From Methanomicrobiaceae archaeon (lineage in GTDB: Archaea; Halobacteriota; Methanomicrobia; Methanomicrobiales; Methanomicrobiaceae), in NCBI GenBank assembly GCA_029762625.1, contig JARVGI010000001.1:310001-374000 (forward strand): a DNA stretch of 64,000 bases, given 5' to 3'. A program made the position numbers and the translations under genes. The notes under the pieces are model-generated. The model searched no databases. It had not been told where the DNA came from and saw only the letters and a list, made by a program, of their open reading frames with translations. Positions 36,458-39,862 of the stretch are shown in pieces (within the stretch, counting starts at the first letter, position 1; the number at the start of each line of letters is the position of its first letter).

Positions 36458-36484
36458 TAACAGTATAGTAGTTGACGTTTGTTC

Positions 36485-37585
36485 ATGAAAAAGATCGCCT
36501 GTCTGTTGATCTTCGCACTGGCCATGGCGGTACCGTCATCAGCCTATCTGATCAACTGCGACTGTCCGACAGAGCTCTATGTTGGTGAGACGCTTGCACT
36601 ATCCGGTACCAGCAATCTACCCGCGGGGTTGACCATCGATATCGTGCTGTACCGGGGAGCACGAGAAATTGAGCGAAAGTCCTTCACCATCCAGGATGGT
36701 GGCGATTGGTCTGTTGCGTTCGAGACGGAAGGACTGCAGGGCGGTGTGTACAAGGTCGAGATCGAGGAAAAGACGCTGTATGTCGACCGCGAGTATATCC
36801 GGTACGAGTTCGGCTCGAGTTCCGATACGCTGAAGGTGATCACGTTTATCGACCGTTCCGGTGAGATCGCCATCACCTCGCCCCTCGTCCAGGGCTTTGC
36901 CGACACCCTCCTGATTTCGGGAACGAACGAGAAAAAGCCGAATTCTGCGGTGAAAATCGGCGTCGTCGGACCATCAGGACCCGTATTCGGCCCAACATAT
37001 GTGGCCACCGATGCCTCCGGTCGTTTCACGGTGGAGGTGCCTGTCAGCGAGACCGGGCCCTATGAGGTCACCTTCTCCGATGCGGGCGGCCTGATCACCA
37101 CGGAAACGTTCACGGTTAAGGGAGCGACGGCACCGCCGACCACGCAGCCGACCTCCGCTCCTGAGAGCTCCATTGTCGAAGCCACGGCAGACGCTTCAAG
37201 GGAAAATCCCGCATTTTTTGCTGTTGCCACCCAGGACGGCGGGGTGCGCATCACCACCTCCGCCGGGGTTGACTGGGTGGTCGAGTATGTCGATGAAGAC
37301 GGCACGCTCAAAAAGGTCAACACCCAGGGCAGGCTGAACCCCGAGGAGATCCGCCTGTCCGCACGGGGGGGGACCGTGTACCTCAAAGTGTATCCGGTGC
37401 GGTTCAATGACGAGGAAACGGTGACTATTTATGCCGAAAATGTTGATTCGGTTACGAGCGCACCCGAAGCGGCAAGCATCTTCGGTGATGCCCCCGAAGC
37501 GACAGCCACCCCGCAATCGCCGCTCCCTGCCGGCCTTGTGCTCCTCGCAGTCGTTCTTGCCTGCCTGCTGTATTTCAGGAGATAA
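36485..37585 (+). CDS. secreted, C-terminally anchored surface protein
   Basis: A 366-residue exported protein. Residues 1-22 form a signal peptide (IACLLIFALAMAVPSSA). Two beta-sandwich-like units follow (about 25-120 and 130-220), with GASS- and TG-rich turns such as FGPTYVATDASGRFTVEVPV. A Thr/Pro linker (PPTTQPTSAPESS) separates a third unit. A C-terminal helix (LVLLAVVLACLLYFRR) would anchor it in the membrane. This is the plan of archaeal S-layer-associated proteins. No catalytic motif is seen. The ATG at 36485 has a TTG six bases upstream. Confidence 0.75.
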   Translation: MKKIACLLIFALAMAVPSSAYLINCDCPTELYVGETLALSGTSNLPAGLTIDIVLYRGAREIERKSFTIQDGGDWSVAFETEGLQGGVYKVEIEEKTLYVDREYIRYEFGSSSDTLKVITFIDRSGEIAITSPLVQGFADTLLISGTNEKKPNSAVKIGVVGPSGPVFGPTYVATDASGRFTVEVPVSETGPYEVTFSDAGGLITTETFTVKGATAPPTTQPTSAPESSIVEATADASRENPAFFAVATQDGGVRITTSAGVDWVVEYVDEDGTLKKVNTQGRLNPEEIRLSARGGTVYLKVYPVRFNDEETVTIYAENVDSVTSAPEAASIFGDAPEATATPQSPLPAGLVLLAVVLACLLYFRR

Positions 37586-37707: not shown

Positions 37708-37920
37708 CTTCTTTTCTTCGCATGTGATTGATGTATTCCTTCCATTCCGGGTGCCGCTGCGGCACCCGGAGACGGGCGGCATATTACTGCGATCGAGAAT
37801 TCCTGCGAGCGCACCATTATGCAGACACGGAGCATCCGGATATATTATTACGGGATATAAGTTATTGGATTTTTATAATATGTAAATTATTATATAATCG
37901 AAGATGCATCCATACACTCC

Positions 37921-38328
37921 ATGGAAGGAATTGGCCTGAGAGTACAGGTGCGGGCCGTACCCAGCCGCGGCAGGGTGAGGGTTCATGAGTCTGCGCTCGG
38001 AATGCTTGAAATCGAACAGGGAGACTCCATCGACCTCTACGGTGATCCTGACGCAAAACCGATACGCGTGAGCGTCTACGCCGATGCGATGGTGGAAAAG
38101 GGTGTCGTCAGGATGGATGCAGGCGACATGGAGAAGCTCGGACTGAGGGAAGGCTCGGTGGTCACGGCCACAAAAACGCCCACATTCACCGAGAAAATAA
38201 AGTCAGCCACCTCACGAACGACGCAGAGCATTGAAGAGGGCGTCGGTTCGGTCTCGAAGAAGATCACCGGAAAACAAGGAGAGACGGAAGAGCCTGAAAA
38301 ACCCGAGATGCAGAAGAAATCGGTCTGA
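37921..38328 (+). CDS. small protein with Cdc48-N/AbrB-like beta-barrel and basic-acidic tail
   Basis: A 135-residue protein. Residues 5-85 resemble a double-psi beta-barrel as in the Cdc48 N-domain or AbrB group: SRGRVRVHESALGMLEIEQGD, GVVRMDAGDMEKLGLREGSVV. The C-terminal 50 residues are low-complexity and charged (EKIKSATSRTTQSIEEGVGS, then EPEKPEMQKK). A TATA-like TTATATAATC about 25-30 nt before the ATG and no Shine-Dalgarno suggest a leaderless start. It is the first gene of a six-gene string ending at 39862. The domain call is by eye only. Confidence 0.65.
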   Translation: MEGIGLRVQVRAVPSRGRVRVHESALGMLEIEQGDSIDLYGDPDAKPIRVSVYADAMVEKGVVRMDAGDMEKLGLREGSVVTATKTPTFTEKIKSATSRTTQSIEEGVGSVSKKITGKQGETEEPEKPEMQKKSV

Positions 38329-38340
38329 CGGAGAGAAGTC

Positions 38341-38718
38341 ATGGCATTACCGGTAACTGATTATGTCATCTATGCCCTTCTCGTCTTCGTCGGACTGATC
38401 ATCATCTATTTTATCATCAGGGAACTGCGCACCTGGCGCAACCAGCCGCGCCTTGCCCAGATCGAACTGGACCGGGAAAAACTGGACCTGATCAAGGCTG
38501 ACATGGGCAGGCGGGGAGAGCCCTACAGTAAACTCCCCGACGAGAAACTTGGGGAACTGCGTATGCTGGATGCCGAAAACAACGCGCTTGAGATCGATAT
38601 TTTCGGCAAGCAGAAAACAGTTGAGGGCAGAATTCAGCGGCTTGAAAACGAGGTAAAAGATAAAAAATACGACAAGATGCTGGAACGCATCCGGGAAGAA
38701 GAGATCAAACTGAGGTGA
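38341..38718 (+). CDS. membrane-anchored coiled-coil protein
   Basis: 125 residues: an N-terminal membrane helix (VIYALLVFVGLIIIYFIIREL, about 7-27) and a long charged coiled coil (LDREKLDLIKADM; VEGRIQRLENEVKDKKYDKML). The cytoplasmic face is probably the C-terminal side. It lies 12 nt after the beta-barrel gene with GGAGAG upstream, and the next gene begins within a few nt of its stop. No known family is recognised. Confidence 0.7.
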   Translation: MALPVTDYVIYALLVFVGLIIIYFIIRELRTWRNQPRLAQIELDREKLDLIKADMGRRGEPYSKLPDEKLGELRMLDAENNALEIDIFGKQKTVEGRIQRLENEVKDKKYDKMLERIREEEIKLR

Positions 38719-38723
38719 ACATT

Positions 38724-39029
38724 GTGTATTCCACGGAGTATGAAAAAGCCCGGAAACGAGAATTGATTGCACCCGAGCTACCTGAACGTTCTTCGACCTT
38801 CGGAGAACGCCTCCCCACACTGGAACAACGTCTGGATCGATATTTCGATTCACATATGGAGGTCATCATCGAGGAATGGGGGCTTGTCACCGCCCATGAC
38901 CTTGCGGTTTTCGAAAAACGGCTTGAGGACATAAGCAGGGAGATCAACGCACTTGAATCAGGAAAAAGCAGGCTGGAAACGCGGGCTTCGGCGGTTGATG
39001 CCGCATTGAAGGAGATGGAACGGTCATGA
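38724..39029 (+). CDS. small coiled-coil protein with shared YxD/EEW motif (copy A)
   Basis: A protein of about 101 residues from a GTG at 38724, chosen because GAGGTGA lies 5 nt upstream; a GTG at 38715 overlapping the previous stop is also possible. It holds the motif LDRYFDSHMEVIIEEWGLVT (38832-38891), which recurs in the next two genes. A coiled-coil C-terminus (FEKRLEDISREINALESGKS) follows. No membrane segment. The function is unknown; the family appears to be an undescribed paralogous set. Confidence 0.65.
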   Translation: MYSTEYEKARKRELIAPELPERSSTFGERLPTLEQRLDRYFDSHMEVIIEEWGLVTAHDLAVFEKRLEDISREINALESGKSRLETRASAVDAALKEMERS

Positions 39030-39250
39030 CAGGCATAGATTCGTACATGAATGCCTACCTCGATAAGAGAATGGCATCTATCATGGATGAATGGCAGCTT
39101 GCCACCCGTTTTGAAACCGGCGATCTCGAGCACCGGCTCAGGATACTCGAGGACGACATCCGTTCGATGGACGATTTCGAGAAGATGGCGGATGTGAAAC
39201 TGACTGACCTCGAGAACCGGATCGCACGCCTGAAGGAGGCGAGACCGTGA
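39026..39250 (+). CDS. small coiled-coil protein with shared motif (copy B)
   Basis: 74 residues, overlapping the previous gene by 4 nt (ATGA), implying coupled translation. The motif MNAYLDKRMASIMDEWQLAT (39047-39106) aligns position for position with copies A and C (tyrosine, LD/FD, R/H, then E-W/Y and L-x-T). The C-terminal half is a charged coiled coil (LEHRLRILEDDIRSMD; LENRIARLKEARP). No other domain. Confidence 0.65.
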   Translation: MTGIDSYMNAYLDKRMASIMDEWQLATRFETGDLEHRLRILEDDIRSMDDFEKMADVKLTDLENRIARLKEARP

Positions 39251-39588
39251 CGATTCTTGAAATTATTCTCATAATCGCCATAATCGCTCTGATCGCATTT
39301 TTCCTCTACTATTTCTTCCGAGGATCCGGCGGTCGTGTCTCGATCTCCCGACCCATGGAGAGCCGCGTGGACATGTACCTTGACCGGCGGTTTGATCTCC
39401 TGATGGACGAATACTCGCTGATCACGAAACCGAAGCTGAGAGCATTCAAGGCAGAAAAAGACCCGTACCTCTCGGAAGAAGAGGGAAAAGCGGAGAGGTT
39501 AAAGATATTCAGGGATGAGATGACCGCAACGATGGCGGAGATGGAGAAGAGATTGGATGTTCTGGAAGCGGAATCTCAGGCCGATTAG
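39247..39588 (+). CDS. membrane-anchored coiled-coil protein with shared motif (copy C)
   Basis: 113 residues from a GTG at 39247, overlapping the previous gene by 4 nt. An N-terminal membrane helix (ILEIILIIAIIALIAFFLYYFF, about 3-24) is followed by the motif VDMYLDRRFDLLMDEYSLIT (39367-39426) and a coiled coil (MAEMEKRLDVLEAE). Its layout unites the membrane anchor of the first coiled-coil gene with the shared motif of copies A and B. No family is recognised. Confidence 0.65.
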   Translation: MTILEIILIIAIIALIAFFLYYFFRGSGGRVSISRPMESRVDMYLDRRFDLLMDEYSLITKPKLRAFKAEKDPYLSEEEGKAERLKIFRDEMTATMAEMEKRLDVLEAESQAD

Positions 39589-39862
39589 AGGCACACGATC
39601 GGAAGGGGAGAACGACCTCTTTTCCAGGCTGAAAAAGGAGATCACGCCCCTGCGCCCGCAGGGGGACCCTCCGCTCCGCGATTCGGGCAGCTTTTCCAGG
39701 TACACCTGTGAACTCTGCGCCACTCCTGCACCCCTCGCCGAGCTGAAGCAATGCGTCCTTTGCGGCAGATGGGCGTGCAGCTCGTGCTGGACATCCGAAT
39801 ACTACGTCTGCAATGCATGTAACGGCATATTACAGCTCCATCTGCTCCACCAGAGCCGTTAA
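39557..39862 (+). CDS. small zinc-binding protein (paired CxxC motifs)
   Basis: 101 residues. The C-terminal half has a cross-brace-like cysteine pattern: CELCATPAPLAELKQCVLCGRWACSSCW and later CNAC, enough to bind two zinc ions, as in B-box, FYVE or RING-like folds. The N-terminal 45 residues are basic and unstructured (RNLRPIRGTRSEGEN). The ATG at 39557 overlaps the previous gene by 32 nt, so the true start could be a later in-frame codon. It closes the six-gene operon. Confidence 0.6.
   Translation: MFWKRNLRPIRGTRSEGENDLFSRLKKEITPLRPQGDPPLRDSGSFSRYTCELCATPAPLAELKQCVLCGRWACSSCWTSEYYVCNACNGILQLHLLHQSR

Follow-up and report, generated by a model that had tools for sequence, protein, structure and literature searches.

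A conserved six-gene cassette of Methanomicrobiales that may encode a membrane-anchored coiled-coil complex with a Cdc48-N-type barrel

To our knowledge, few adaptors have been described for archaeal Cdc48. In Cdc48, the known groove for cofactors is built in part by the second half of the N-domain. The cassette reported here opens with a protein whose predicted model has the same barrel fold as the Cdc48/VAT N-domain (PF02359), with Foldseek probabilities of 1.00 to Cdc48/VAT N-domains, including the AtCDC48 N-domain (9m4g) and the double-psi β-barrel of a VCP-like ATPase (7dg9). Unlike in Cdc48/VAT, this barrel stands alone, without AAA domains or the second N subdomain, and is followed instead by a repeat tail. 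Long orthologues of this protein end in a TrkA_C, or RCK_C, domain (PF02080), but the copy studied here has no such domain and no transporter is joined to it. Genes 3, 4, and 5 share a block whose second half weakly resembles, in register, the short helix, LxT capping box, and coiled coil of phasins of the PhaF/PhaI type (PF05597); unlike phasins, they score below the family cut-off, carry a Y(F/L)DxRM half, and occur as three tandem copies, one of them membrane anchored. Gene 6 encodes a full-length, well-scoring member of Prok-RING_2 (PF14445) with its eight cysteines, but it has no constant ubiquitin-system neighbors and is missing from six loci. The Prok-RING families were reportedly defined in a 2011 paper by Burroughs, Iyer, and Aravind. 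Each of these folds is known, and we found no described system with such a gene set; a literature search, which did not cover the 2011 prokaryotic RING paper, returned no published account of the six-gene cassette.

The cassette lies in a 64,000-nucleotide stretch of DNA from a Methanomicrobiaceae archaeon, the whole of which was analyzed and is called the window. All six open reading frames are present as the original prediction, made from the sequence alone, had described them, and the features are as follows.

37890..37897, + strand: TATA box TTATATAA, predicted from sequence, ∼27 nt 5′ of the gene 1 start
37921..38328, + strand: gene 1, 135 aa, predicted Cdc48-N-type double-psi β-barrel (∼residues 1 to 86) and helical tail
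38341..38718, + strand: gene 2, 125 aa, N-terminal single-pass transmembrane (TM) helix and predicted cytoplasmic coiled coil
38715..39029 (or from 38724), + strand: gene 3, 104 aa, predicted soluble paralogue, shared block (38832-38891, LDRYFDSHMEVIIEEWGLVT) and then coiled coil
39026..39250, + strand: gene 4, 74 aa, predicted soluble minimal paralogue, shared block (39047-39106, MNAYLDKRMASIMDEWQLAT) and then coiled coil
39247..39588, + strand: gene 5, 113 aa, N-terminal TM helix, shared block (39367-39426, VDMYLDRRFDLLMDEYSLIT), and a later coiled coil
39557..39862, + strand: gene 6, 101 aa, predicted eight-cysteine two-zinc treble-clef domain, Prok-RING_2 (PF14445)

A TATA-like element is found at a similar distance in the two nearest relatives and in several other loci, and its spacing from gene 1 suggests a leaderless or near-leaderless transcript. 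Genes 3 and 4 and genes 4 and 5 overlap by 4 nt (ATGA and GTGA), as had been claimed. Gene 3 itself may start at the GTG at 38715, which gives a 4-nt overlap with gene 2, or at the GTG at 38724 originally assigned, and many of its orthologues start at the position equivalent to the latter (MYETE...). The start/stop overlaps of the cassette are conserved; that between genes 5 and 6 is 32 nt in the window, and one of ∼29 to 47 nt is kept in most loci.

All six genes have orthologues in the genome that the window comes from and, of 59 further genomes searched, in 21; within this set they were never found apart. Against the two nearest relatives, dN/dS was 0.06 to 0.24 for each gene. Judged by this shared presence and by these ratios, the six ORFs are real genes under purifying selection. 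Scanning one genome per species yielded 70 loci in Methanogenium, Methanolinea, Methanoregula, Methanospirillum, and unnamed Methanomicrobiales; the order 1-2-3-4-5-6 on one strand is kept in 59 of them, 57 without defects and 2 with one gene divided between two frames. The others are truncated by a contig end or are short of gene 6 alone, with no rearranged locus among the 70. Among 394 genomes of the phylum, the gene 4 profile matches strongly in 31, and the PF14445 profile does so in exactly these; the former retrieves three paralogues per cassette and, in one genome, six copies that seemingly represent two cassettes. Outside the 31 genomes, the profiles retrieve weak coiled-coil matches or short zinc proteins, and many other members of the family and order do not carry the cassette.

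No constant neighbor accompanies the cassette among the 70 loci, and flanking genes vary. In ∼12 loci, a DUF308/HdeD-like gene in the same orientation lies 3′ of the cassette; the membrane protein that it encodes comes just after the cassette in L098, L099, L106, L107, L118, and L121. Upstream in the window are a predicted secreted 368-aa protein with no Pfam match (36479-37585, + strand), which recurs in 12 loci and is divergent in those of Methanolinea, and between it and the cassette a tRNA gene (Rfam RF00005; 37623-37707, + strand). The PADLOC anti-phage defense models matched none of the six proteins; with this result, one marginal PHROG match, and no phage or plasmid matches for gene 5, we rejected a defense or phage origin.

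The three shared 20-residue blocks were recovered where they had been placed, and the pattern matches nowhere else in the window in all six frames. A coiled coil follows the block directly in genes 3 and 4, as had been proposed for all three proteins, but in gene 5 a stretch of ∼30 residues intervenes. The concern attached to the original prediction was that such similarity might be no better than random coiled-coil matches; the genes would then be unrelated neighbors, and all three proteins are indeed largely helical. Profile-profile comparison with hhalign, on alignments of 62 to 70 orthologues per family, gave probabilities of 98.87% for genes 3 and 4 (E = 3e-17, 71 columns), 99.34% for genes 3 and 5 (E = 7e-21, 107 columns), and 99.13% for genes 4 and 5 (E = 6e-19, 70 columns), compared to at most 22% for reversed-profile controls that keep composition and helix periodicity. 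The gene 4 profile also retrieves genes 3 and 5 within cassettes. We therefore give chance resemblance practically no credence and discarded it; on these profiles genes 3, 4, and 5 are true paralogues with a similarity far above chance. Gene 2, which is also a coiled-coil protein, did not join genes 3 to 5 in hhalign; only its TM segment aligned, with gene 5.

In a tree of 63 sequences, built on few columns and with long branches flagged by the tree program, genes 3, 4, and 5 each form one group that arose once (supports 96/94, 94/91, and 97/97), which places the triplication before the split of the sampled lineages. The anchors are divided among the copies. An N-terminal TM segment is present in 100% of gene 2 (63/63) and gene 5 orthologues, whereas genes 3 and 4 have none and only 1 of 65 gene 3 orthologues passes the hydrophobicity threshold. 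The proposed tandem duplication into anchored and unanchored subunits thus agrees with both the three clades and the TM pattern, and the membrane-anchored coiled-coil neighbor of the original prediction is gene 2. Just after the TM segment, gene 2 and gene 5 orthologues carry a net charge of ∼+2 and, by the positive-inside rule, their coiled coils should be cytoplasmic. No Pfam family scored over its cut-off on gene 2, and a search of solved structures returned no match for gene 2 and, for gene 3, nothing beyond generic or designed coiled coils.

By sequence and by predicted fold, gene 1 is a double-psi barrel of the Cdc48 type. The Pfam CDC48_N model scores just below its curated cut-off (6.3e-8, 33.1 versus 35.1 bits), the model has a pLDDT of ∼90 for residues 1 to 85 with a tail of low confidence, and the gene 1 profile also retrieves the N-terminal parts of Cdc48-like ORFs of 700 to 834 aa, down to 3e-8. 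Of the barrel described earlier as Cdc48-N/AbrB-like, the Cdc48-N half is therefore retained and the AbrB half is not: an AbrB/MazE toxin-antitoxin or transcription factor was rejected on the fold and on the MazE_antitoxin/AbrB score (E = 0.071, 13.5 versus 24.7 bits). A Cdc48 ATPase was likewise rejected, there being no AAA domains within 135 aa. The tails of gene 1 orthologues repeat with a period of 11 residues (z = 30 at 11 and 24.5 at 22), and their hydrophobic moment peaks near 98°, the angle of an 11/3 helix, in three examples. The repeat tail, which is short in the window's own gene 1, may form a hendecad coiled coil and not a lipid-binding helix.

Gene 6, called a two-zinc protein in the original prediction, belongs to a described family: it matches the full Prok-RING_2 domain (8.2e-28, 96.8 bits versus a cut-off of 22.4, positions 1 to 56 of 56), and its eight cysteines are invariant in 24 sequences. 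It is missing from six loci although the sequence runs past gene 5 (L081, L082, L094, L095, L101, and L104); for four of the six the sequence itself was inspected. Genes 1 to 5 thus look like the core of the cassette and gene 6 like an accessory. Several bins with such a locus hold a second one with gene 6 (L112, L114, L066, and L115), which we treat as a lead only since the bins may be mixed. Elsewhere, a same-phylum genome of family f8 encodes a stand-alone 64-aa Prok-RING_2 protein (L161, 2618-2812, − strand), and short matches of this kind occur in several of its relatives.

The fixed gene order, the overlapping starts, the joint occurrence of the genes, and the division of anchors among them together argue that the products of the cassette form one complex, and such assembly is likely. 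As no gene encodes a recognizable enzyme, the complex should hold or recruit something at the membrane. Our main reading, to which we assign a probability of roughly 0.5, is a membrane-anchored hetero-oligomeric scaffold or adaptor with Cdc48/VAT as its best candidate partner. The scaffold would sit on the cytoplasmic face of the cell membrane, anchored by the single-pass proteins of genes 2 and 5. In genes 3, 4, and 5, a single subunit would have diverged into three copies, and their N-terminal helix blocks and coiled coils would build, together with gene 2, a mixed bundle of helices. The Cdc48-N-type binding head would come from gene 1, whose amphipathic tail would rest either on lipid or within that bundle, and gene 6 would add a two-zinc binding module as an accessory. 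As an adaptor, the whole would bring its partners to the membrane, with the Cdc48/VAT unfoldase as the best candidate among them.

Cdc48 or its clients are favored as partners by the Cdc48-type head and by one genomic neighbor. In genome G377, gene 1 is the sole cassette gene found, in two copies, one of which directly follows the gene for an 810-aa Cdc48, ∼200 nt from it and in the same orientation (L195, 956-4183); genes 2, 4, 5, and 6 have no match there. Being an adjacency in a single draft genome of 96% completeness, this is a lead only, and no Cdc48 was found in the flanks of the 70 cassette loci. That gene 1 has no counterpart to the second N-domain half also counts against this step, and we regard the Cdc48 link as tentative. 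The most far-reaching version of the proposal, in which an as yet unnamed membrane complex of some Methanomicrobiales carries a stand-alone Cdc48-N-like head on a lipid-binding 11-residue-repeat tail, recruits Cdc48 or its clients to a triplicated coiled-coil platform on the membrane, and serves as a ubiquitin-free adaptor for membrane protein quality control, is rather unlikely.

The closest competitor does away with protein unfolding and sees a structural coat of a membrane surface or granule, a phasin- or apolipoprotein-like scaffold that shapes or protects the surface. Phasin is the commonest Pfam match of gene 3 orthologues (25/33, best 1.9e-5, weak) and also matches 10/34 gene 4 orthologues; hhalign against archaeal phasins gives 70% for gene 4, with the same LxT-xxDL register, and gene 1 tails show weak apolipoprotein/senescence matches. 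The HdeD-like gene downstream would also fit a coat. However, the window's gene 3 reaches only 17.8 of the 28.8 bits of the curated cut-off, genes 3 and 5 stay at 18% and 29% against archaeal phasins where controls reach up to 22%, coiled coils attract chance matches, and no phasin-family match at E = 0.001 was found in 60 relatives. Phasin membership of genes 3 to 5 is suggestive but falls short of the cut-off, and we did not adopt it; what had been called an undescribed motif remains so in that no Pfam model exceeds its cut-off, less so in its weak in-register likeness to the C-terminal part of phasins. A phasin-like protein occurs in 25 of 31 genomes of family f8 (L167 to L191). These phasin- and apolipoprotein-like features favor a plain membrane-surface scaffold, which is possible, if somewhat unlikely; we place the adaptor slightly ahead of it, the scaffold being common to both.

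Two other readings take their cue from single domains. TrkA_C exceeds its cut-off at the C terminus of 7/7 long gene 1 orthologues tested, including that of Methanospirillum, and such fusions are seen in L112, L123, L093, L104, L077, L113, and L110. Gene 1 could then sense a small ligand and the membrane subunits signal to a transporter or channel, but the window's gene 1 and most orthologues have no TrkA_C and no transporter is a constant neighbor, making a ligand-gated regulatory complex improbable. The family name of gene 6, together with the Cdc48-N likeness of gene 1, would suggest a membrane-bound RING E3 ligase that passes tagged proteins to Cdc48 in an archaeal ubiquitin-like system. 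Against this, the core is kept without gene 6 in six loci, and with no constant neighbor there is no linked E1, E2, or ubiquitin-like gene. The UQ_con E2 model had no match in 30 relatives, where the control gave none either, and the fold search with the gene 6 model gave weak matches throughout, to FYVE and PHD fingers no less than to RINGs (best E = 0.17); a weak match to a TFIIE structure was taken as chance. A RING ubiquitin-ligase reading of gene 6 is not supported, and we rejected the ligase system as very improbable for want of supporting genes.

The scaffold or adaptor that we prefer would be a six-part assembly, without a recognizable enzyme or a named system to which it belongs, that has stayed whole in several families of a single archaeal order, and it points to an unstudied cell-biological structure. 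The cassette is also a clear instance of a gene triplicated into separate subunits, with membrane anchoring divided among them. If gene 1 is a Cdc48 adaptor, ubiquitin-independent recruitment of Cdc48 to membranes would become testable.
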